This document shows, piece after piece, positions 44,174 through 54,970 of a DNA stretch of 64,000 nt. Below the pieces are notes generated by a model. That model made no database searches. It was not told where the DNA came from and was given only the letters and a program-made list of their open reading frames with translations. The stretch is from Clostridia bacterium. Lineage in GTDB: Bacteria > Bacillota > Clostridia > Oscillospirales > Acutalibacteraceae. Numbering within the stretch: the stretch's first letter is position 1; each line of letters begins with the position of its first letter. The DNA is taken from positions 62,001-126,000 of the forward strand of contig JAFTXJ010000009.1 of assembly GCA_017461625.1 (NCBI GenBank). The letters run 5' to 3'. The position numbers and the translations under genes are program-made.

Positions 44174-45808
44174 ATGAAAACAATTAACAGAGTTTTATGC
44201 TTTTTAGTTTCATTTGCAATCGTTTTCGGTTGCATGGGAACATTATCCTTCGCACAGAATTTTAAAAGATATTATTATATCGACTCCATCGACGGTGATG
44301 ATACAAACAGCGGAACTGACATCAACAACCCTGTTAAAACTATAAGCGGTCTTAAGGATCTTGTAATTGAAGCAGGTACTCATTTCCTTTTTAAGAACGG
44401 CGGTGAATATGACTGTGAAGTTACCCTCACCTGCAACGGTACAAAAGAAAACCCAATTGTAATTTCATCTTACGGTGACGGTGAAAAAGCAATTCTTAAA
44501 ACGAACGAAAAAAACGAAGTTCTTCGCCTTTTCGACTGCTCATATGTTACAGTTTCAAACATTCATATTGATGCTCCGAATGGTGGCGGAATCTGGATTG
44601 ACACCCTCAACCGGACATCCGAGGGCATTGTTATTGATAATGTGTTTTTTACCAATATGCAGAATTACAGAGTTAACAGCCGCGACGATTTTTCAAACGG
44701 TGCTGCAACCGCAAGAGCTGCAATTATGGTTAAAGGTCTCCCCGCCCGTTCAAGATATGCAGTAAACGACCTGACAATTTCTGACTGTGAAGTTTATAAC
44801 TGTGCTAACGGATTTATGATTTGGGGTTCGTGGAACGATAATCAGGATTGGGCATGCAAAAACGAAGAAGACATTGACCCCGTTTATAATGAAGGTCTTT
44901 TAATTGAAGGCTGCTATTTCCACGAAATGGATGCTGAGGCTGTTATTGTAGGAATGTGTGACGGAGCTTTGGTTACTGATTGCCGTGCCATTAACTGCTG
45001 TCAGGGTCCCGGAACAGACGAAAACGGCAATATTCTTTATTTCACTGCAGCAATGTGGTTCTGGGGAAGTGAAAACAGCACCATTCAATATTGCGAGATT
45101 GCCGGTCAGAAAAACGTAGGCGACGGTATGGCAGTTGACTTTGACTCCCATTCTAACAACTGCACTTATCAATATATTTATTCTCACGATAATATGCGTT
45201 TTGTCTGCAACTGCCCCAATTACAGCGGTCAGTTCAATAACACGGTTCGTTATTGCCTTTCTGTGAACGATAACGGCGGAAGAAGCCGTATTTCAGCAAA
45301 TCCGGGTGAACACGGCTTTAAATTTTACAACAACACAATTGTAAACTGTTCTGATTTTTATATGATTGATATGTATAATTCTGTAATTGCCAACAACATT
45401 ATTATCCCTGACGAAGGTTATGTTGTATGCTACGATATGGCAGACTATTTCAGAGACGGCAACATTTTTGCAAGCAACTGCTATTACGGAACAAACAAAC
45501 CTCTTTGTGACACAATAAAATCCATAAACAGACTCCCCGGATTTGTTAGTGATGATTTAACTGACCCGGAAAGCTTTAAGCTTTCTGCCGACTCACCATT
45601 GATAGGCAGAGGTGTTGAGGTTGAAGGCAACAATCTTTCAACAGACTTTTTCGGCAACGAAATCACAAGTAATAACATCGGCTGCTTTGGTGGTGACGGT
45701 GAAGATGTGAAATATGAAAGAGAAAATATTTTTGAAAGAATTATAAGCTTCTTCCAAAGCCTTATGGAAAGAATTGAGCACGAAATCAAAGGCATTAAAG
45801 AATATTAA
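44174..45808 (+). CDS. Secreted right-handed beta-helix protein
   Basis: A 544-residue protein with a signal peptide (about 1-27, 'VLCFLVSFAIVFGCMGTLSF'). The mature part starts 'YIDSIDGDDTNSGTDINNPV', typical of pectate-lyase-superfamily and alginate-lyase-like proteins. Repeated rungs follow ('CSYVTVSNIHIDAPN', 'ENSTIQYCEIAG', 'YNSVIANNIIIPDEG'). The C terminus is a charged amphipathic helix ending 'IKGIKEY' without a sortase motif. It may bind or cleave an extracellular glycan; neither catalytic residues nor substrate can be assigned. A convergent GH29 fucosidase gene shares its terminator. Confidence 0.85.
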   Translation: MKTINRVLCFLVSFAIVFGCMGTLSFAQNFKRYYYIDSIDGDDTNSGTDINNPVKTISGLKDLVIEAGTHFLFKNGGEYDCEVTLTCNGTKENPIVISSYGDGEKAILKTNEKNEVLRLFDCSYVTVSNIHIDAPNGGGIWIDTLNRTSEGIVIDNVFFTNMQNYRVNSRDDFSNGAATARAAIMVKGLPARSRYAVNDLTISDCEVYNCANGFMIWGSWNDNQDWACKNEEDIDPVYNEGLLIEGCYFHEMDAEAVIVGMCDGALVTDCRAINCCQGPGTDENGNILYFTAAMWFWGSENSTIQYCEIAGQKNVGDGMAVDFDSHSNNCTYQYIYSHDNMRFVCNCPNYSGQFNNTVRYCLSVNDNGGRSRISANPGEHGFKFYNNTIVNCSDFYMIDMYNSVIANNIIIPDEGYVVCYDMADYFRDGNIFASNCYYGTNKPLCDTIKSINRLPGFVSDDLTDPESFKLSADSPLIGRGVEVEGNNLSTDFFGNEITSNNIGCFGGDGEDVKYERENIFERIISFFQSLMERIEHEIKGIKEY

Positions 45809-45814
45809 CAAAAA

Positions 45815-45845
45815 GCCCTCTGCTAAAAACAGAGGGCAAATTTTA
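45815..45845. terminator. Bidirectional terminator between the beta-helix and fucosidase genes
   Basis: GCCCTCTG (45815-45822) pairs with CAGAGGGC (45830-45837) around a 7-nt loop. A-rich on the left and T-rich on the right, it works for both convergent genes. Confidence 0.9.
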
Positions 45846-46853
45846 TTTCATAAGTAATGCTGATTTTTGTAATGCTTCAACCGAAAAAGACGGAATCCTT
45901 CCAAGACCATCAGGACCGATGTTAAGAAGATAATTGACGCCAAGGGAGTTAAGACGCTTTCTTCTTTCTGCAATCTCCTCGGGAGTAATCCAGTTCTGGT
46001 CGTAATATTTATATCCCCAAGAAGAGTTCAGCGTACCTGCAGTTTCATAAAGGCCATAAGGTGAATATTTAAAGCCGTCAAGGCTGTTAGGGTCAGAATT
46101 TTCTGTTGGTTTGAATTCTGTAGGATATTCATTATCCCCCAATGAAACATAGTCATAAGCACCATTGCCGATTCTTGAATTTATAAGGCAATCAGGCTGA
46201 TACTCTTTTACAAGAGCATTCAATTCAAGGCTCTGCTCTTTTGTAATTGTATGAGGAACATCAAACCAGATTAAACACAAATCACCGTAATTTGTGAGAA
46301 TTTCCTTAACCTGAGGCTTGATTTTTTCTTGGAAACAAATAGAAAAATCCTTTTTACTTCTGTCAGGAAAATCCCAGTTATTATCCCACGAAGTGCCTGA
46401 ACACCCTGCAAAATTGGTATATCCTCCACCGTGAGGATGATGCCAGTCAAGCTCCTGTGAATAATAAAGACCAAACTTAAGCCCGTATTTGTAACACGCC
46501 TCACCAAGCTCAGCAACAACATCCCTGCCAAAAGGAGTTGCATCAACAATATTAAATTTATCGGCACGTGACTTAAACATCGCAAAGCCGTCGTGATGCT
46601 TTGAAGTGAAAACAAAATATTTCATTCCGCAGTCACGGGCAAGACGTATCCATTCATCTGCATTAAAATAAATCGGATTAAAGATATCAGCAAGCTTACC
46701 ATATTCTGCGTTTGGAACAGGCATATTGCTTTGAATCCATTCGGCATAATCGAGCACCCGGCGGCCATGATATTCACCGCCAAGAAGGGAGTATAATCCC
46801 CAATGAGCCATCATACCAAACTCTGCCTGCTTAAACCATTCTCTGTTATTCAT
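45843..46853 (-). CDS. GH29 alpha-L-fucosidase, cytosolic
   Basis: A 336-residue GH29 catalytic barrel without a C-terminal beta-sandwich and without a signal peptide. 'EFGMMAHWGLYSLLGGEYH' at the N terminus, 'YFVFTSKHHDGFAMFKS' and 'LCLIWFDVPHT' with the likely catalytic nucleophile Asp are family hallmarks; 'LLNIGPDGLGRI' closes the domain. An intracellular enzyme implies action on imported fuco-oligosaccharides. It lies downstream of the HprK-like gene but behind a terminator, and no clear promoter of its own was seen. Confidence 0.9.
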   Translation of the reverse strand: MNNREWFKQAEFGMMAHWGLYSLLGGEYHGRRVLDYAEWIQSNMPVPNAEYGKLADIFNPIYFNADEWIRLARDCGMKYFVFTSKHHDGFAMFKSRADKFNIVDATPFGRDVVAELGEACYKYGLKFGLYYSQELDWHHPHGGGYTNFAGCSGTSWDNNWDFPDRSKKDFSICFQEKIKPQVKEILTNYGDLCLIWFDVPHTITKEQSLELNALVKEYQPDCLINSRIGNGAYDYVSLGDNEYPTEFKPTENSDPNSLDGFKYSPYGLYETAGTLNSSWGYKYYDQNWITPEEIAERRKRLNSLGVNYLLNIGPDGLGRIPSFSVEALQKSALLMK

Positions 46854-46876
46854 ATCACACCTCTACTATAAACAAC

Positions 46877-46899
46877 AAAACCCCCTCTCGGGTGGTTTT
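46877..46899 (-). terminator. Terminator after the HprK-like gene
   Basis: A stem of AAAACC-CCC with GGG-T-GGTTTT (46877-46885 with 46890-46899, one bulged T) has a TCTC loop and ends in TTTTG on the minus strand. It separates the peptide-modification operon from the fucosidase gene. Confidence 0.7.
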
Positions 46900-46917
46900 A
46901 TTGCATAAAATATATAA

Positions 46918-47676
46918 TTAATCGAAAACCTTTTTAAAAGTCAGATTAACAGCTTCTTCGTCAGGGCGGCAGGTAAGGTGCCACACGGGAACACTGCTAA
47001 CCAAAGAATCAAATGTTTTTAACGCCTCAACTACACAAGATTCATCCCAATGAGGGAGAAAAACATGAGGTATTAACATATCAGTTGACGACTCTTCAAG
47101 CTTTGTTATTTTATTTTCTTCAGACTGATTTAAAACAATGATTGCTTTAAGCAGAACTTTTTTATTAAGACAATACTCCGACGAACCCTTCCAAGGTAAT
47201 CCGCAAGCGAAAAAATCACCGTCAATATTACGTACAAAAGCTTTGTCTCCGTTTACAATCTCCGCTTTCATAAACTTATTCCATAACTCTGCCTGAGTAG
47301 TTTTACCCACACCAGAACAGCCGATAAAAAGCAAGCCCTGACCGTTATAATCAACAAGCGAAGAATGGAAAAGCAATGCACTATAACAAGAAAACCTTGC
47401 ACATAAAGCAGCTAAAGGCAAAGAAAAATCATTGTAGGTCATAGGTTTACAAAACACTGTAACCCTGCTCCAATCATTATTTGCACAAAGGCACTGACCG
47501 CCATCGGTTTTTAAAAATTTTTCACTTTGTGCATATTGAATTCCGTGACACTCGGGCATTTTTTCTGCAAAACGAATTGACATTATTGCTTCTTCGTTAT
47601 CTGCTGAAACAAATCCGTCAGCAAAATCGGTGTCATCATTTTGCCAGTCTATAAGCAAATCTGCTATTTTAATCAT
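46918..47676 (-). CDS. HPr-kinase-like protein of a peptide-modification cassette
   Basis: A 252-residue protein with the P-loop kinase fold of HPr kinase/phosphorylase but no N-terminal HprK domain. Walker A 'GCSGVGKTT' is at residues 119-127, and the C-terminal 'VWHLTCRPDEEAVNLTF' resembles HprK-related proteins in RiPP clusters. Related kinases in paeninodin-type lasso-peptide clusters phosphorylate the precursor; a similar role on the adjacent peptide is inference. The ATG at 47676 follows the peptide stop by 1 bp and lacks a strong ribosome-binding site, suggesting coupled translation. An in-frame TTG at 47730 would overlap the peptide gene. It is the last gene of the PqqD-rSAM-peptide-kinase operon. 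Confidence 0.8.
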   Translation of the reverse strand: MIKIADLLIDWQNDDTDFADGFVSADNEEAIMSIRFAEKMPECHGIQYAQSEKFLKTDGGQCLCANNDWSRVTVFCKPMTYNDFSLPLAALCARFSCYSALLFHSSLVDYNGQGLLFIGCSGVGKTTQAELWNKFMKAEIVNGDKAFVRNIDGDFFACGLPWKGSSEYCLNKKVLLKAIIVLNQSEENKITKLEESSTDMLIPHVFLPHWDESCVVEALKTFDSLVSSVPVWHLTCRPDEEAVNLTFKKVFD

Positions 47677-47677
47677 T

Positions 47678-47947
47678 TTATTTGCGTTTAAAGCAGTCAA
47701 ACCAAGCTTTATAGTTGCCGGTTTGTTCAACCAACTGTGTTAAATTATCATAATAGTCAATAAATTCTGTTCCTGTTGTTGTAACAGCAATCAAATTGGT
47801 GTAAAGATCACGGCAGTTTTCGAGAATCTCGGTAAAAGTGATAATAGCAGCACCGCCAACCTCTGATGCACCGGCTGAAATTGCGATGTTTTCACTGACA
47901 CTTATGGTGATAAGCTTGCTTTCGGGTGCAATGTAACTCTTTTTCAT
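47678..47947 (-). CDS. Candidate RiPP precursor peptide
   Basis: An 89-residue peptide starting 'MKKSYIAPESKLITISV'. Y5-x-x-P8 matches the YxxP leader motif that PqqD-like recognition domains bind in lasso-peptide systems. A small-residue and Gly-Gly segment at 25-34 ('AGASEVGGAA') could divide leader from core. The core is rich in Thr, Asn, Tyr and acidic residues, contains two Cys (C45, C85) and ends in basic 'FKRK'. It has no homology that I recognise. The strong AGGAGG site lies in the last codons of the radical SAM gene, and the gene sits between that enzyme (2-bp gap) and the kinase (1-bp gap). Modification and function are not known. Confidence 0.7.
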   Translation of the reverse strand: MKKSYIAPESKLITISVSENIAISAGASEVGGAAIITFTEILENCRDLYTNLIAVTTTGTEFIDYYDNLTQLVEQTGNYKAWFDCFKRK

Positions 47948-47949
47948 AA

Positions 47950-49002
47950 TTACATTTCCTCCTTTTTGATATTATATAAATCCTGAAGTCGCTTTGCCAT
48001 AAGGCAAAAGCTGCTGTCAATTTTTTCGGGATGCCCGCTTTCGGCACACAAAATACCGGGGCAACGCTGACAAAATTCTTTCCATTCACAGCTATGACAC
48101 TCAATGGGGCTTTTTACGCTCCGAAGTAATTTATCTAACGAATGAAAATCTTTTAAAAAATCACCGGAATACTGTACATATGGGTCACTTAAAGACGTGC
48201 ACAGCTGAAAATGACCATGCCATGTTATAACAAGGCTTTGCCCCAGGCTCGCACACCAGGCAAAAGGTGTTTCAAGCGGCGGAAACTTGCTTCTTTCTAA
48301 CATATCAAGACTTATTTCGTCAGGGAAATCGGCAAATTCGAACCTTGAAGACTCAACAGTGTTTATAGAACCTCTTGATGACTTATGCACCGAAATTGTA
48401 TGCTGCATCGAGATACCCTTTTCATGGGCAAAAGCATAAATCTTTTGCAAATCACAGGCATTTTCTTTAACTATGGTTGATGTCATTTTAAGAGGAACTC
48501 TCGCCTCTTTCAATAAATCAACTGCTTTTGATAGCTTTGTAAATCCGTCTGAGGAATTACAAACCCTCTTATAAGTTTCATCGCTTGCACCGTAAACAGT
48601 GAGCTTCATCATATGGGGCATACCGTAACGGCGAAAATTAGCCATTGCTTCTTCATCAATCAATGAACCGTTTGAAAGGATATTAATTAAAAAGCCCATC
48701 TTATTAAGCTCTTTATATATCTTCCAAAAATCAGGATGAGATAACGGTTCTCCCCCGGTTAATGTTAAATGGAGTGTTCCTGCTTCTTTAGCTTGGCGAG
48801 CAATTTCTATCCACTGATCAGCAGTGAGCATTTCGCCTTGCTCCTTAGCCAGATTTTTATCAAGGCGAACGTAACACATTACACAGCTGAAATTGCAAAA
48901 AGGAGTCAATTCAAATGTTGTATAAAGCGGAATTCTATTCTGCTTTGCCCAAATAGAGATTTCATTTAAAAAGTCATCGCCGAAATGCTGACAATCTATC
49001 AT
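47950..49002 (-). CDS. Radical SAM/SPASM peptide-modifying enzyme
   Basis: A 350-residue enzyme. The SAM-cluster Cys C36-x3-C40-x2-C43 lies in 'TPFCNFSCVMCYV', with 'LTLTGGEPLSHPDF' as the GGE motif. The C-terminal Cys set (C302, C305, C311, C314, C319, C333; 'CHSCEWKEFCQRCPGILC') plus the upstream 'AWCASLG' and 'HFQLCTSL' Cys fit a SPASM/twitch domain with auxiliary Fe-S clusters. Such enzymes crosslink or epimerise ribosomal peptides or make peptide-derived cofactors. Its start overlaps the PqqD stop by 4 bp and the peptide gene follows after 2 bp, strongly linking the three. The chemistry cannot be predicted from sequence. Confidence 0.88.
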   Translation of the reverse strand: MIDCQHFGDDFLNEISIWAKQNRIPLYTTFELTPFCNFSCVMCYVRLDKNLAKEQGEMLTADQWIEIARQAKEAGTLHLTLTGGEPLSHPDFWKIYKELNKMGFLINILSNGSLIDEEAMANFRRYGMPHMMKLTVYGASDETYKRVCNSSDGFTKLSKAVDLLKEARVPLKMTSTIVKENACDLQKIYAFAHEKGISMQHTISVHKSSRGSINTVESSRFEFADFPDEISLDMLERSKFPPLETPFAWCASLGQSLVITWHGHFQLCTSLSDPYVQYSGDFLKDFHSLDKLLRSVKSPIECHSCEWKEFCQRCPGILCAESGHPEKIDSSFCLMAKRLQDLYNIKKEEM

Positions 49003-49265
49003 TGTAGTGCACCTTGCTCTTTTAATCCATCAAGGAAACTTTCAACATCTGAGACTGCCACAGAATGTTCAACATCATAATTGTCAGTTAGGATGCCTGC
49101 AAGGGTTTCAATATCTGCCCCTTGTTCAAGAGCTGCCCACAAAAGAGCACCACTTTCGCTTAAAGCAATCATACCGTGAATTTCAGAGGTTCGGCTACCT
49201 ACCGGCACAGCCATAAATCGGTTGCCGATTTTTCTGACAATAAAACCGTCTTTCACTTTAAACAT
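48999..49265 (-). CDS. PqqD-family peptide-recognition protein (RRE)
   Basis: An 88-residue PqqD-like winged-helix protein, 'MFKVKDGFIVRKIGNRFMAV' then 'ALSESGALLWAALEQGADI' and 'VSDVESFLDGLKEQGALQ'. PqqD-type RiPP recognition elements present leader peptides to radical SAM enzymes. The ATG at 49265 has an AAGGAGG site 7 nt away; earlier in-frame codons precede that site. It is the first gene of the operon, with its own promoter, and its stop overlaps the radical SAM start (ATGA). Confidence 0.9.
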   Translation of the reverse strand: MFKVKDGFIVRKIGNRFMAVPVGSRTSEIHGMIALSESGALLWAALEQGADIETLAGILTDNYDVEHSVAVSDVESFLDGLKEQGALQ

Positions 49266-49311
49266 TGCAGCACCTCCTTCAGCAATAGACAAAAGCCCTA
49301 TTATTTTTTAA

Positions 49312-49340
49312 ATTATAACACAACCGCAATAGCAAATCAA
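49312..49340 (-). promoter_or_regulatory. Promoter of the PqqD-radical SAM-peptide-kinase operon
   Basis: On the minus strand TTGATT (49335-49340), a 17-nt spacer and TATAAT (49312-49317), followed by a leader of about 40 nt. It lies after the terminator of the ABC transporter gene, so this operon is a separate transcription unit. Confidence 0.8.
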
Positions 49341-49372
49341 TAACATATTCACCATTTTTTCAAATTCAAATA

Positions 49373-49409
49373 AAAATGCAGATATGCCAAAAAGCAATGA
49401 CACATCTGC
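49373..49409 (-). terminator. Terminator after the ABC exporter gene
   Basis: On the minus strand GCAGAT (49404-49409) and ATCTGC (49378-49383) pair, with inner TGTC/GGCA pairing, and are followed by ATTTTTATTT. The stem is imperfect but fits the end of the operon. Confidence 0.7.
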
Positions 49410-49414
49410 TTAAT

Positions 49415-51136
49415 TTATTTTTCAATTTGGGTTAAATTGCCTTCTTCATTAATTCTGTAAACGCGTTTGCAATACTGTAACATACTCGGTCTGTGAGTTG
49501 TAATGACGCAGGTGCGATTCGGATATGTTTTCATAATATTGGCAAGAACAGTTGCTTCAGTCTGTGCATCAAGGGCACTTGTAGCTTCATCCATAACAAG
49601 CACAGGTGCATTCCTGAGCAATGCTCTTGCAATGGAAATCCTCTGAATCTGACCTTCTGAGAAATTCACGCCCCTCTCACCTATTTCAGTATGGATTCCA
49701 TCGCTGAGCTTTTTAATAAAGCTCCACGCATCAGCGGTTTCGAGGGCCGCTATCAGTTCATCATCAGTGGCATCGGGTTTTACTATTCTCAGATTATCAG
49801 CAATACAGCCTGAGAAAACTGCATTATCCTGAGGAACATATGAACAGAATCTTCGAGTGCTGTCTGAAATAGTTAATTTTTCACCATTTTGTGTGATCAT
49901 TGACATTTCGCCAGAAGCAGGACTAACAAGCCCTAAAATCAAACGAAGAATTGTTGTTTTACCCTCACCCGAAGGACCAACAAGAGCAATCGTTTCACCG
50001 GGGTCTGCATAAAATGAAATGTTTTTAACAACAGGAGCTGTTCCGTTTTTATATGTATACGTAAGATTGTCACACCTCAGGTGCAAGCCGTCTTTTTCTG
50101 CAGTTTCTCTGATAGATTCGGCCTTTTTACCATCAATATCTTTTTCTGTAGGCAAGTCATTCAATTCCATAACTCTGCCTGCAGCAGTTGCGATTGAAAT
50201 GGCATTTGGAATCAACTTGACCAACGCAGAAAAAGAAGATGATAACTGACCCGAAAGCTGCAAAAACAGTGTCATGGTACCGTAAGTTATTGCTCCTTGC
50301 CACAGTTGCCATACACCCCAACCATAACACAGATACGTTACCATAAGACCGATTACCGACATACACAAAGACATTACAATTGAAAACTTTCCATGATCTA
50401 ATCTTAATTTTCTGTATAAATCAAGGTTGTTTTTTAGCTGGGTCACATAATATTTTGTCATACCGAAAGCTTTGATCGTCTGGATATTCTGAATCGACTC
50501 AGAATAAAATGACAAAATTTTTCCGTTCATCTCACGTGCCTGCTCATTGTATTTTCGCATCATTTTAGCTGAAAATTTTGAAGTGAGCAAAAGAAACGGA
50601 GAGCTTAGAAAAGCAAACACCGCCATTATCGGATCGTAATATAAAACCACAGCAAGGCAACCGATAAACTGAGCAGACTTTGTGAAAACACCCGGAATAT
50701 AAGAAACAACACTTCCAGCCAAGGCAGCAACATCGCCTTCAATCCTGTTAAGCAATTCGCCCGAGTGATACTTGCTTATGTCTTCCCAATGAGAAAAAAC
50801 AATATGCTCATAAATATCTTCACGAATTTCATTGCTTATTTTTGTTCCGACAACTGAAGCGATTCTGGAAATAGCCGACCCGGTGACAACCTGCAAAATG
50901 GCAAGTGAGATAGCAAATACTGCACTTGTAACAATCGTATCATTATTATGCGACACAACAGCATCAATCAGATATTTGGAAGCTACACCTGAACCTAGCC
51001 CCATGCAGATGCTTACCACACCTAAGACAACATAAATAATCATTTGAAGACGGTAGCGAGAAACATAATGTAAAAGCCATCTCCACTCTTTACTTAAAGA
51101 GTGAAGAAGTTTAGCATATTCGCCGGGCTTTTTCAT
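49415..51136 (-). CDS. ABC exporter with fused membrane and ATPase domains
   Basis: A 573-residue half-transporter of the ABC-B/MsbA-like type. Six membrane helices (about 30-320) precede the ATPase with Walker A 'LVGPSGEGKTTIL', Q-loop 'CSYVPQDNAVFSG', signature 'VNFSEGQIQRISIARALL' (a FSEGQ variant of LSGGQ) and Walker B 'VLVMDEATSALD'. There is no N-terminal C39 peptidase domain. It is last in an operon with two BY-kinases and next to the peptide-modification operon, so it could export either a polysaccharide precursor or the modified peptide. The substrate is unresolved. Confidence 0.9.
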   Translation of the reverse strand: MKKPGEYAKLLHSLSKEWRWLLHYVSRYRLQMIIYVVLGVVSICMGLGSGVASKYLIDAVVSHNNDTIVTSAVFAISLAILQVVTGSAISRIASVVGTKISNEIREDIYEHIVFSHWEDISKYHSGELLNRIEGDVAALAGSVVSYIPGVFTKSAQFIGCLAVVLYYDPIMAVFAFLSSPFLLLTSKFSAKMMRKYNEQAREMNGKILSFYSESIQNIQTIKAFGMTKYYVTQLKNNLDLYRKLRLDHGKFSIVMSLCMSVIGLMVTYLCYGWGVWQLWQGAITYGTMTLFLQLSGQLSSSFSALVKLIPNAISIATAAGRVMELNDLPTEKDIDGKKAESIRETAEKDGLHLRCDNLTYTYKNGTAPVVKNISFYADPGETIALVGPSGEGKTTILRLILGLVSPASGEMSMITQNGEKLTISDSTRRFCSYVPQDNAVFSGCIADNLRIVKPDATDDELIAALETADAWSFIKKLSDGIHTEIGERGVNFSEGQIQRISIARALLRNAPVLVMDEATSALDAQTEATVLANIMKTYPNRTCVITTHRPSMLQYCKRVYRINEEGNLTQIEK

Positions 51137-51172
51137 AATATCATCTCACTTTTGTCTGTTTTAATTATTGTT

Positions 51173-52630
51173 TCAGGATTTTTTACTTCCGTATCCGTAT
51201 TTTTTAGAATATCCGTAGTTATAAGAATATCCACCGCGGTAGTATTTGTAATAACTGCCGTAACCTCCGATACCGCCGGTTGCACAGTTAAGAACACAAC
51301 CAAGTAAATTTGCATCTGTTTCAAGCAAGGAGCTGATACCCGAACGTATGTTAGATTGAATAACGGCATCCTGCCTTACAACATATATAATTGTATCAAC
51401 GGCACCTGCAATAATTGTTGCATCCGAAATCATTCCGCAAGGCGGTGTATCAACAAGCACCATATCATATTCATACTTCAGAGTCATCAAAAGTTCTTTA
51501 AGCTTAACTGTTCGGACAATTTTTTGAACAGAATCAACATTTGGCTTGAAGCTGAGCAAATCAAAATCAAGCTTTTCAATATGTTCAACAGTAAAGTATT
51601 CATTATCAACCAATAAAAGTCTTTCAAATTTTCCTTCAGAAATCATTTTATGAATACCTGAATTTCTCAAATCCGCATCAACCACAAGCATTCGCTTTTC
51701 TTCACGCGATAAAGATATCGCAAGGTTAACCGTTAACACAGTCTTGCCTTCACCAGGAGCAGTACTTGTAATCATTACAGTCTTTTCCCCATCTTCCAAA
51801 GATACCTGTACAGCACTGCACAAAAGGCGAAAAGACTCATAAAATTCATTTCCGATGAGCGGGTTAGTTACTACAAGGCTTTTGCTGATTTCTCTACGAT
51901 ACTTTTTAAACACAACCTGAGGCAAAACTCCGATGCAGTGCTGATTAAGAATATTCTGAACATCATCCTTTGTCCTGATTGTTTTCCTAAACATTGCATA
52001 AATCAGTATCCAACCAAACCCCAAAACAAAGCCGATAAGCACCCCATAAAAAACAGATTTCATCCATTCACTGGAATTTGAAGGGCTCGTAGGAACAACG
52101 GGGTCATTAATCATAACAAGCTTCGTTCGTCCGATTATGTACTCAGCAACAGAAGAATAGTTTTCAATAACAGAAAGCAACGTATCGTAAGTAAGCTGGG
52201 GATCAGAACCTTTTGCAGTAAGGGTAATCATATTTGTTCCCTCAACACAAGCTGCTGTAACAGAAGCAGGCATACTATCCACTCCCAAATCTTCGCATAC
52301 TTGTTTACGAAGAATTGCATTGCTGATAATATGGGGGAATACCATTTCAAGTTGGTCGGCTGTTTCTCTGTCATAATAGAAAGAGTATGCCGACACACCG
52401 TTATCACCTGAAAGCACCTTGTTTTCAGTGTGAACAGTAAATGTTGCAGCGGCTGTATATTCAGGAGTAAAGCGAATATAGCTTCTGTAAAACTGCACGC
52501 CACCCAACAGAACAGCTAAAGCTAAAGCTACCCATCCAAACTTCTTTACACCACGCCAAACATCACTGAACAAAACACCTATTTCAATCGATGAAATTGT
52601 ATTGTCCTTTGGAGAAGCGTTATTGTTCAT
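51173..52630 (-). CDS. BY-kinase/Wzz-type protein with Tyr-rich tail (second copy)
   Basis: A 485-residue protein with an N-terminal Wzz-like region (helices near 33-52 and 196-217) and a cytosolic BY-kinase. Motifs are Walker A 'TSTAPGEGKTVLTVNLA', Walker A' 'LVVDADLRNSGIHK' (the usual Pro is replaced) and 'LVDTPPCGMISDA'. The C-terminal ~37 residues hold about 11 Tyr with Gly and Lys ('GGYGSYYKYYRGGYSYNYGY'). It follows another BY-kinase by 4 bp. No glycosyltransferase gene is nearby, unlike a standard capsule locus, so its role here is open. Confidence 0.88.
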   Translation of the reverse strand: MNNNASPKDNTISSIEIGVLFSDVWRGVKKFGWVALALAVLLGGVQFYRSYIRFTPEYTAAATFTVHTENKVLSGDNGVSAYSFYYDRETADQLEMVFPHIISNAILRKQVCEDLGVDSMPASVTAACVEGTNMITLTAKGSDPQLTYDTLLSVIENYSSVAEYIIGRTKLVMINDPVVPTSPSNSSEWMKSVFYGVLIGFVLGFGWILIYAMFRKTIRTKDDVQNILNQHCIGVLPQVVFKKYRREISKSLVVTNPLIGNEFYESFRLLCSAVQVSLEDGEKTVMITSTAPGEGKTVLTVNLAISLSREEKRMLVVDADLRNSGIHKMISEGKFERLLLVDNEYFTVEHIEKLDFDLLSFKPNVDSVQKIVRTVKLKELLMTLKYEYDMVLVDTPPCGMISDATIIAGAVDTIIYVVRQDAVIQSNIRSGISSLLETDANLLGCVLNCATGGIGGYGSYYKYYRGGYSYNYGYSKKYGYGSKKS

Positions 52631-52634
52631 AATA

Positions 52635-54143
52635 TTAATCCTCTTTTTTACTATTCATATCGTCTAATAAATCAGCAGAAAAACCTTCATCAAGCACTTC
52701 AGTCAAAGAACTTGATTTAGAATATTTGGAATAACCATAATAATTACCATATCCGTAACCACCACGTTCATCAGCACCCATCTGGCCAAACAAGGTGAAC
52801 GGCTTATAAACATTGTTTAAAATACATCCTTCAAGATTACCGCCTGCATCTGCAATTGAAAGAATAGTATCATTAATGTCTCTTACCGGAACACAGTCAG
52901 TTCTTACCACAATAAGCGTACTGTCAGAATAAGTTGAAAGGGTGATTGCATCTGCAGAAACAGAAGTGGGAGGAGTATCTATTATGACAAAATCCATTTG
53001 CTCTCTCAAGGTCAAAATACAATCTTCAAAATAGTGACCTTTAAATAATTCTGCCGAATTAGAATAAGTTTTTTTATTAAATGCAATCAGCAAATCACTT
53101 TTTCTGTAACGGAAAAATCTGAAATTACCAATACCTATTTTGCTTGAAAGAACATCAGAAAAATCATTTTTGATTTCATCATAAAAGTCAAAAATCTTAT
53201 AAAGCGAAGGCTTGTGTACGTCAAGGTCAAGAAGTGCTATCTTATAGCCACGGTTTGACAAAGCAATAGCAAGGTTAGCCGCAACAGTAGATTTACCTTC
53301 GTTTTCAGCAACACTGGTAATAGTGATAACCTTTTTACCATTATTTTTATTAATATATTCAAGCTTTGTCGCAAGTTTTTGATAGTCCTCTGTAAACTTT
53401 AAGCTTGAATAAGGGTCATTTATCAGCAGAGCCCTTTTTTTCTTTTGTAAAATCTCTTTAAACGACAGATGCGGTCGTTCGTGAGGAACAATACCCAAAA
53501 GCTTTGAATCAATCTTTCCGGAAAATCCCTTTTCCTCTTTAACGGTTTCGCGAAGCAAAGAGAGAAGTATAACAATTGCGGCCTCAAATGCCATAGCAAG
53601 CAAGATAATATGCTTTCTATAAGTAATCAATGCCGAGTTTGCCGGATAAGAAGGCATTTGAGGTTCAGAGATTATATTGATGACAGCATCTGTAAAAACA
53701 GCATCAGAAACTTTGGGATAAACTTCAAGAATAGAAGTAAGAAGCTGAAAAGCTAACTCAGGTTCATCAGCTTTTACCGATATATTAAGCATATTTGTTG
53801 AACCTTTAACAGAAGTTTCAATTGTACCGTCAAATGAATCTAACCCGAGATTTTCGGCAGCCAGCTTTTTCATTGAATTCTGCTTAAAAACCTTTGTAAA
53901 TATTTTTGCCATTTCAGCTGAGGCAGTGAGGTTGCTGTATGCACCTGAAATACCAACCTTGGAGCGAACAACAAGCACAGCACTACTGACATAAGTGGGT
54001 GTGTAAACGCTTGTTTCATAAACGTGAATGCCCATCCATGCAATTATTGCTGCGAGCACAATTGCCCAAGAGCAACGAATCAGGTCTTTAATAAGGCTGT
54101 TCCATTCAAAAGTGAAAGAAATCCAAGTATTATTCTTTTTCAA
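52635..54143 (-). CDS. BY-kinase/Wzz-type protein (third copy)
   Basis: A 502-residue protein with Wzz-like membrane part (helices near 26-45 and 179-200) and BY-kinase domain: Walker A 'TSVAENEGKSTVAANLA', 'IALLDLDVHKPSLYK' as Walker A' and 'FVIIDTPPTSVSADA'. A short Tyr cluster lies near the C terminus ('GGYGYGNYYGYSKYS', about six Tyr). The TTG at 54143 is 8 nt from a GAGGAG site; the GTG at 54152 overlaps that site and also overlaps the upstream stop, so the TTG is preferred. Being tandem with a diverged paralogue suggests a heteromeric system. Confidence 0.85.
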   Translation of the reverse strand: MKKNNTWISFTFEWNSLIKDLIRCSWAIVLAAIIAWMGIHVYETSVYTPTYVSSAVLVVRSKVGISGAYSNLTASAEMAKIFTKVFKQNSMKKLAAENLGLDSFDGTIETSVKGSTNMLNISVKADEPELAFQLLTSILEVYPKVSDAVFTDAVINIISEPQMPSYPANSALITYRKHIILLAMAFEAAIVILLSLLRETVKEEKGFSGKIDSKLLGIVPHERPHLSFKEILQKKKRALLINDPYSSLKFTEDYQKLATKLEYINKNNGKKVITITSVAENEGKSTVAANLAIALSNRGYKIALLDLDVHKPSLYKIFDFYDEIKNDFSDVLSSKIGIGNFRFFRYRKSDLLIAFNKKTYSNSAELFKGHYFEDCILTLREQMDFVIIDTPPTSVSADAITLSTYSDSTLIVVRTDCVPVRDINDTILSIADAGGNLEGCILNNVYKPFTLFGQMGADERGGYGYGNYYGYSKYSKSSSLTEVLDEGFSADLLDDMNSKKED

Positions 54144-54148
54144 CGCTA

Positions 54149-54970
54149 TCACTCCTCTACAACAACAGTAAGAATGGAATGACCCTCATATCCGCTATCT
54201 GTTGTAATATAATAATGAACATTATAAGTTCCGGGCTCTTCAGAATCAAAGTTTGTGGAAATAAGAAGGTTGTAATTCTTCATAAGAACACCGTTTACTG
54301 TTACTTCCTTAATATAATCATCAAATACAGGTTTTTCACCTTTCTTTATATAAATAAGGCTCTTTTCAAGCTGAATTTCAGGAGCCATTGTTTCATTACC
54401 TTCAACGTGAATGGTAACATCAAGATAAATTGAATCACCCATACTGTTTGTTACCTGTAAAGAAACGGTAAAAACACCGGCAGTGTTCTCAACATAGTCA
54501 GTTGCAAGAATCGTTACTTTATCGCTGATATCGCCGTCAATGCAGTCACGTGCGCCAACAGCAGAACGGATGTCAAGAGCTTCTTCAACCGAATATACCA
54601 ATGCTCGTTTCATATAAAATTCAGGGGCAGTATAGTCGATATAACGAACGGTACGGCTCTGCTTGGTTACATGTCTGTCACTGTCAGCTACAGCATATGT
54701 AACAGTGCACACACCGGGCTCTATAAATTTGGAAACAGACTCGATTAAGATCTCATCAGTAATATCTCCGTCCTTACCGTCATAAGCAGTTACACCCTGA
54801 AGAAGAACATCTCTTTTGTCTTTTACACTGATCTCTATCTCTTCTGAAGCAATCGTAATTTCAGGTAAAGTTCGGTCTGTTGTAAACTCGGCAATCATTG
54901 TGAACAAAACAAACGCAACCAATGTTACCGAAAAAATCATAATAGTTATTTTTTGTAGCAGTTTAATCAT
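54149..54970 (-). CDS. Membrane-anchored extracellular Ig-like (DUF5011-type) protein
   Basis: A 273-residue protein with one N-terminal membrane helix ('ITIMIFSVTLVAFVLFTMI') and an extracellular part of about three beta-sandwich repeats. The first two carry 'TAYDGKDGDITDEI' and 'GARDCIDGDISDKV', the D-G-D-I-[ST] calcium-like turn of DUF5011/HYR-type domains; the third is degenerate. It is first in the operon and precedes the two BY-kinases. It may be a surface scaffold or sensor for the same assembly; no enzyme motif is present. Confidence 0.8.
   Translation of the reverse strand: MIKLLQKITIMIFSVTLVAFVLFTMIAEFTTDRTLPEITIASEEIEISVKDKRDVLLQGVTAYDGKDGDITDEILIESVSKFIEPGVCTVTYAVADSDRHVTKQSRTVRYIDYTAPEFYMKRALVYSVEEALDIRSAVGARDCIDGDISDKVTILATDYVENTAGVFTVSLQVTNSMGDSIYLDVTIHVEGNETMAPEIQLEKSLIYIKKGEKPVFDDYIKEVTVNGVLMKNYNLLISTNFDSEEPGTYNVHYYITTDSGYEGHSILTVVVEE

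Follow-up and report, generated by a model that had tools for sequence, protein, structure and literature searches.

Linear Polyphosphorylated Peptides (LPPs), described only in 2026 and as linear peptides, are represented by the lpp cluster of Paenibacillus alginolyticus DSM5050. This cluster combines a recognition element (RRE) for a ribosomally synthesized and post-translationally modified peptide (RiPP), LppB, with the kinase LppK, the signal-peptidase-like LppS, the nucleoside triphosphate (NTP) transferase LppN and the exporter LppD (PMC13381572). LPP precursor leaders follow the consensus YxxPxVLxHQxIxFETxxS, in which YxxP is required for RRE binding; LppK adds several phosphates to core Ser3, LppS cleaves after T-1, and the clusters often lie within capsule loci (PMC13381572). 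The main text of that paper, which is the scope of this statement as the supplements were not searched, makes no mention of radical SAM, rSAM or SPASM. Here we analyse a stretch of 64,000 nucleotides from a gut Clostridia bacterium (GCA_017461625.1, contig JAFTXJ010000009.1; hereafter the window), which carries a minus-strand cassette encoding a PqqD-type RRE, a radical SAM/SPASM enzyme, a small peptide and an HprK-like kinase.

Like the lpp cluster, the cassette joins a discrete RRE, an HprK-like kinase and an MsbA-like exporter. The likeness extends to a YxxP leader, a Ser near the core start, a capsule or exopolysaccharide setting and the lack of a lasso cyclase and, in most close relatives, to an archaeal-type signal peptidase and an uncharacterised NTP transferase (here of family PF14907). 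Unlike the lpp cluster, it places a radical SAM/SPASM enzyme between RRE and precursor; its core is long and holds two invariant Cys, and peptidase and nucleotidyltransferase are encoded in trans in the window genome. The evidence for a RiPP cassette is good, with a conserved precursor gene, divisible into leader and core, beside modification enzymes. More specifically, sequence comparison and analogy with LPPs lead us to favour, at a probability of roughly 0.7, an LPP-like RiPP cassette that has gained a radical SAM/SPASM maturase and whose peptide core is probably modified by the SPASM enzyme as well.

Precursor peptide and cassette enzymes

The GTDB species collection was scanned with the radical SAM alignment only, giving 246 pattern matches and 177 relatives; 79 survey loci came from the best 80 of these relatives. 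The 20 closest distinct loci form the window-type set, from which L075 was dropped as a copy of L074. All survey counts rest on a home-made gene caller that misses genes and that, in the window, hides the precursor behind a TTG-extended kinase ORF (open reading frame).

The precursor gene (89 residues, 47678..47947) has no credible match in Pfam or NCBIfam. The original prediction, made from the DNA letters, had staked its RiPP reading on a conserved small ORF between enzyme and kinase and on purifying selection acting on the peptide. A peptide ORF occupies this place in 20/20 window-type loci, and omega, the ratio dN/dS of nonsynonymous to synonymous substitution, is 0.15 for the window versus L100 (89 codons) and 0.08 for L086 versus L088; these closer pairs were relied on, dN/dS being saturated for most pairs (many with pS of at least 0.7, several with dS undefined). 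The RiPP reading thus came through both tests and was right in outline.

Thirteen positions are invariant in the 21 aligned precursors (window plus 20): M1, K2, Y5, P8, S10, L12, E19, I21, A22, F38, C45, Y49 and C85. The leader is nearly frozen, including the YxxP motif (YIAP, residues 5-8, codons 47924..47935). The core is freer, yet F38, C45 (47813..47815), Y49 and C85 (47693..47695) are kept in all 21. Past the Glu, the motif reads ExIAxS in 17/21 precursors and ExIAxxS in 4/21 (L081, L086, L088, L090); its Ser in the window is Ser24 (47876..47878), which lies where leader and core meet and, by analogy with Ser3 of LPPs, is the predicted target of the kinase. Within loci holding both radical SAM and HprK genes, YxxP lies near the N-terminus of 45/73 free 40-110-residue ORFs beside HprK versus 8/165 elsewhere in the same loci, with a Fisher p of 4e-21 that overstates the case since the loci are related and the p values not independent; longer ORFs, mostly without the motif, fall outside the length limit. 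Many Lachnospiraceae and related loci have a different ORF of 96-146 residues at the precursor place (33 aligned), without YxxP and carrying W...gG.tg.gW and a C-terminal Cys, so that precursor type varies by lineage. Two different YxxP precursors stand in tandem between radical SAM and HprK genes in L092 and L093.

By sequence profile, the PqqD and Radical_SAM family assignments are firm (Pfam PqqD, E 6e-13, 88 residues, 48999..49265; Pfam Radical_SAM, E 2e-25, 350 residues, 47950..49002), and no NCBIfam model scored above cut-off for either protein. The Pfam SPASM model gave no match to the window enzyme; the SPASM assignment is based on its conserved Cys pattern. CX3CX2C and seven C-terminal Cys (C250, C268, C302, C305, C311, C314, C333) are present in 21/21 window-type enzymes and in five sequences of alignment A1, three more distant; C4, C148 and C319 are likewise kept in 21/21. 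The C-terminal spacing is CX2CX5CX2C, the expected SPASM spacing being CX2CX5CX3C. PqqE (E 2e-22), ScmE (E 1e-18) and, third, StsB are the best NCBIfam matches of the enzyme, all under cut-off, and SkfB (E 6e-13) and PqqE are its best PDB sequence matches.

For the PqqD protein, the NCBIfam matches include lasso PqqD models below threshold. Its D73, invariant in 20/20 aligned RREs (window included), aligns with Gln97 of PDB 9x90 in a weak match (E 0.025). We take 9x90 to be PbaB1, where an 18-residue offset would make Gln97 Q79 and Gly60 G42. Q79 and G42 of PbaB1 are the residues changed to mimic LppB, whose Tyr-binding D70 stands at the place of Q79 (PMC13381572). At the position equivalent to PbaB1 G42, the window RRE has Ser and LppB has Asn.

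The HprK-like kinase (252 residues, 46918..47676) was scanned against profiles from 47664, four residues short of its start, and its HprK matches lie below threshold (Pfam PF07475, E 0.007; NCBIfam ScmC, 6e-4, and hpr-ser, 1e-3). H104, the P-loop GxSGxGKTT and NGD144K are invariant in 21/21 window-type loci; among 115 homologues from fetched loci, the His and the Gly-Lys are each present in 115/115 and the Asp in 114/115. A quick, midpoint-rooted tree of 111 kinases, built without L075, L033, L034 and L046 (copies of other loci) and without kinases of 180 residues or fewer, contains one clade of 64 rows, 62 of them with radical SAM (support 95), and a second of 25 rows, 24 with radical SAM (support 96). 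A separate clade of 14 rows (support 99) comprises 10 LPP-like loci, 3 others and 1 radical SAM locus. Some kinases of radical SAM loci fall outside both main clades, and deeper branches are weakly supported.

Locus organisation and related architectures

The four ORFs lie exactly where the original prediction had placed them, and its junctions were confirmed: a 4 bp overlap of PqqD stop and radical SAM start (48999-49002), 2 bp from radical SAM stop to peptide ATG, and 1 bp from peptide stop to kinase ATG (47676-47674). A mechanical ORF list starts the PqqD and kinase genes at TTG (49292 and 47730). The ATG starts at 49265 and 47676 are preferred because spacing and the relatives' lengths fit, PqqD proteins having 88-90 residues in 18/19 window-type loci where called and kinases 247-263 residues in 20/20.

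A unit of these four genes only, as once proposed, does not describe the locus, since further minus-strand genes adjoin the cassette: an MsbA-like ABC exporter (573 residues, 49415..51136; Pfam ABC_membrane and ABC_tran), two Wzz/Wzc-like proteins (485 residues, 51173..52630; 505 residues, 52635..54152) and an Ig-like surface protein (273 residues, 54149..54970; Pfam Bact_surface_Ig-like). Both Wzc-like proteins have homologues in 20/20 window-type loci and the Ig-like protein in 19/20, none being seen in L079. The common order is Ig-like, Wzc-like, Wzc-like, ABC, PqqD, radical SAM, precursor, HprK, then an S26-like peptidase (13/20) and a nucleotidyltransferase (16/20); L087 is an exception in which the caller found no PqqD. 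The exporter gene lies 1-2 genes upstream of radical SAM in 19/20 of these loci, and 17/20 have a named ruminant or deer host.

Across the 79 survey loci, PqqD and HprK are both near radical SAM in 64, PqqD only in 9, HprK only in 5 and neither in 1. An ABC exporter is near in 60/79 and an S26-like peptidase in 24/79; a Wzc-like gene occurs in 52/79 and Ig-like and Wzc-like genes together in 47/79. A small ORF directly follows radical SAM in 66/79, a count that takes any ORF below 150 residues and includes L096 and L098, whose ORFs do not look precursor-like. Lachnospiraceae such as L102 and L104 have another block order (PqqD, radical SAM, ORF, HprK, ABC, Ig, Wzc, Wzc). When 150 genomes of the same family were searched with the kinase, 72 of them, counting the window genome, matched at E 1e-5; of 41 kinase loci in the fetched family stretches, 25 have radical SAM near and 11 have S26 and no radical SAM.

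The promoter predicted at 49312..49340 on the minus strand (TTGATT-17-TATAAT, with TG ahead of the second hexamer) fared unevenly. A generic scan found 11 sites versus 12.2 (sd 3.9) in shuffles, so the hit alone means nothing; yet the identical site starts 72-77 bp before PqqD in 6/19 compared loci (window included), a TATACT version holds this position in 2 further loci, and 1 has a different site at -50. In the other 10/19 the gap between ABC and PqqD genes is 0-24 bp, with no room for the promoter, and in these 10 of 18 compared relatives the exporter is probably co-transcribed with the cassette, which is not so in the window. For the terminator, claimed at 46877-46899, a minus-strand hairpin 3' of the kinase gene (46872..46904, -18.9 kcal/mol) folds at z -5.1, but a simple scan, which found 2 terminators versus 3.8 in shuffles, fewer than chance, did not list it. 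That scan did list a second minus-strand terminator-like hairpin, between exporter and PqqD (49378..49409, z -4.8).

Several loci show further arrangements. In L079, a second set of radical SAM, YxxP peptide and HprK (387, 56 and 378 residues) lies directly upstream of the window-type set, before PqqD. Nine loci (L035, L038, L040, L043, L048, L050, L060, L061, L062) have a second radical SAM architecture beside a very large ORF, of 1,373-2,665 residues in 8/9, several being cut by the stretch and L062 showing the end only. A Cys-containing peptide of 45-83 residues accompanies it (YxxP in 8/9, YxxA in L050), mostly with a 228-327-residue protein, then HprK, radical SAM and usually PqqD; the large protein could act as partner or as target. 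Several precursors of this type, and those of L034, L042, L046, L097, L119 and L147, have Cys at the place of the Ser after ExIA or one position later, which in radical SAM-linked precursors is perhaps a switch of target. HprK (with radical SAM in L064) lies next to a protein of 726-736 residues in L064 and L065, whose ends look LanM-like by eye. In L136, a metagenome-assembled genome of Thermincola ferriacetica, a further PqqD-HprK-S26 set comes after PqqD, radical SAM, peptide, HprK, S26 and ABC, so that a radical SAM cassette and a radical SAM-free cassette apparently stand in tandem.

Proposed maturation route and rival explanations

From the gene set and by analogy with LPPs, we infer the following chemical steps, their order and the role of the product. 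The leader, approximately residues 1-20 or 1-24 (MKKSYIAPESKLITISVSENIAIS), would be held through YxxP by the PqqD protein, which would present the precursor to the SPASM enzyme. This enzyme would most likely install a thioether or carbon–carbon crosslink around IxFTxxxxxCRxxY and the C-terminal Cys, while the HprK-like kinase would phosphorylate the conserved Ser24 at the leader/core border; in this reading both enzymes would modify the peptide. The leader would then be cut off by a signal peptidase of archaeal type that is encoded in trans; the nucleotidyltransferase adjoining the peptidase gene may add a further group to the phosphate, and the product would exit through the MsbA-like exporter. 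The steady presence of two Wzc-like and one surface Ig neighbour hints at a role of the product on the cell surface or in connection with exopolysaccharide. The fixed SPASM enzyme would argue against a purely linear product.

A leader protease had been called absent, which is true locally; a candidate lies elsewhere in the genome, where contig C3 encodes a signal-peptidase homologue and a nucleotidyltransferase side by side. In L033 (same contig as L077), the kinase is followed by an S26-like protease and a nucleotidyltransferase of family PF14907. The C3 peptidase is 49% identical to this L033 protease, and among NCBIfam models it matches archaeal signal peptidase TIGR02228 best, below cut-off (32.6 of 51.85 bits). 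The C3 pair may serve this cassette. In an alignment of 46 S26-like proteins, which includes some duplicate and radical SAM-free loci, Ser33 is present in 42/42 sequences with a residue there, His73 in 45/45 and Asp89 in 46/46. LppS has the triad S29/H68/D93 (PMC13381572), which these residues appear to resemble, the Asp correspondence being presumptive. ORFs of about 150 residues beside HprK-PqqD in other loci were considered as lasso B2 proteases and rejected, their profile labels being S26/archaeal signal-peptidase-like. On contig C11 the window genome has a second locus, HprK-ABC-PqqD-S26 without radical SAM, whose gene content resembles that of an LPP cluster; no precursor ORF was seen there, and the short ORFs with Y/WxxP, one of 31 and one of 32 residues, both overlap other genes.

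Several observations weigh against the LPP-like reading. The kinase reaches the cut-off of no Pfam or NCBIfam family, its HprK similarity being weak, and phmmer against PDB chains returned chance myosin matches only. Fifteen of the 79 radical SAM loci are without PqqD or HprK nearby, some of them at contig ends. The window and its nearest relatives, L072 and L100, have no peptidase or nucleotidyltransferase in the cassette; more broadly, S26 is absent from the examined stretch in 7/20 window-type loci (L072, L100, L084, L086, L087, L088 and L091, of which L084 stops at the end of its contig) and the nucleotidyltransferase in 4/20. The register of the leader also differs: counted from the motif Tyr as -16, E19 falls at -2 and Ser24 at +4, where LPPs have Ser at +3, and the F-3/T-1 of LppA are unmatched (S18/N20 in the window), only E-2 fitting. 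Finally, A-x-S at residues 22-24 might instead mark the place where a signal peptidase cuts, which would put Ser at -1.

Could the peptide instead be a carrier or the source of a small redox cofactor, as in pyrroloquinoline quinone (PQQ) or mycofactocin biosynthesis, rather than a secreted RiPP? A PqqD protein with a SPASM enzyme is the PQQ/mycofactocin plan, and PqqE and ScmE lead the NCBIfam matches of the radical SAM enzyme, both far under cut-off. We nonetheless consider a cofactor-type peptide very unlikely, given the MsbA-like exporter close upstream in 19/20 relatives, the Wzc-like neighbours in 20/20, the signal-peptidase homologue in 13/20 and the length of the core, about 65 residues, in which two Cys are invariant. 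It is also improbable that only the radical SAM enzyme acts on the peptide, with the HprK-like protein directed to another target (a Wzc-like partner or a sugar-transport protein) or serving as a P-loop adaptor: the weak HprK similarity and the nearby Wzc-like proteins fit this proposal, whereas the invariance of H104, P-loop and D144, the mostly separate clades of kinases from radical SAM loci, and the precedent of LppK, which phosphorylates its precursor (PMC13381572), speak for a peptide kinase.

A further explanation, doubtful yet to be taken seriously, keeps both enzymes on the peptide and makes the phosphate transient: it would license leader cleavage or nucleotidyltransferase action, as suggested for LPPs, and the final product would carry the radical modification only. 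The position of Ser24 at the leader/core border is consistent with this, and LppS cleaved unphosphorylated precursor poorly (PMC13381572). At least 64 loci, mostly from anaerobes, have near-LPP machinery in which a radical SAM enzyme is a fixed neighbour of the precursor; under the preferred reading of an LPP-like cassette with an added SPASM maturase, LPPs would extend further, and span more chemistry, than their description so far. The repeated association with Wzc-like and surface proteins also makes testable the capsule role of kinase-bearing RiPPs, so far guessed.

Relation to described peptide systems

The original prediction had compared the kinase with those of lasso-peptide clusters. 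Paeninodin-type lasso systems do share an RRE, an HprK-like kinase, a nucleotidyltransferase in some cases and a Y/WxxP-type leader (PMC13381572, PMC7533575); unlike the cassette leader with its Tyr, paeninodin leaders nearly always have Trp (PMC13381572). The predicted absence of a lasso cyclase was borne out: no lasso cyclase or B2 peptidase is encoded among the genes at 44174-54970, and the only Asn_synthase (PF00733) match in the genome, on contig C4, spans just 42 of the model's 354 positions. Because the genome, 87% complete, has no PF13471 (B2-type) match either, the lasso comparison is weaker than that with LPPs.

SynChlorMet (TIGR04249/04250/04251) is a predicted cassette that likewise combines an HprK-like ScmC with a PqqD-like protein and SPASM enzymes, and ScmC is the best NCBIfam match of the kinase (19 of 125 bits) and ScmE the second of the radical SAM enzyme (67 of 400 bits). 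These scores place the cassette proteins far below the NCBIfam cut-offs, and the L136 and L104 kinases and the L136 radical SAM enzyme also stay below; a SynChlorMet cassette has two radical SAM enzymes. No paper bearing the name was found in the open literature. Sactipeptide and ranthipeptide SPASM maturases (SkfB, StsB, PapB) act on Cys-containing precursors, and the window enzyme resembles them in having SkfB as its best PDB match and StsB as its third NCBIfam match; PapB is listed for L136. The cassette differs from these systems in its separate PqqD protein and its kinase, and the similarity is limited. Among the open-literature titles and abstracts in the matches listed, with subscription papers not covered, none has radical SAM and an HprK-like kinase act on the same precursor; in PMC4289311, radical SAM enzymes and HPr kinase appear in separate sections, with different peptides.

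The LPP cluster remains the closest comparison. The leader lacks VLxHQxIxFET and has in common with the LPP consensus only YxxP, the Glu at -2 and a Ser close by, so membership in LPPs proper is not claimed. We give even odds to a broader arrangement, in which the cassette belongs to a separate RiPP class that is widespread in Clostridia and also represented in Coriobacteria and Erysipelotrichia. Its precursor would be SPASM-crosslinked, HprK-phosphorylated and exported as a partner of Wzc-type exopolysaccharide machinery, LPPs forming the radical SAM-free branch of the class.

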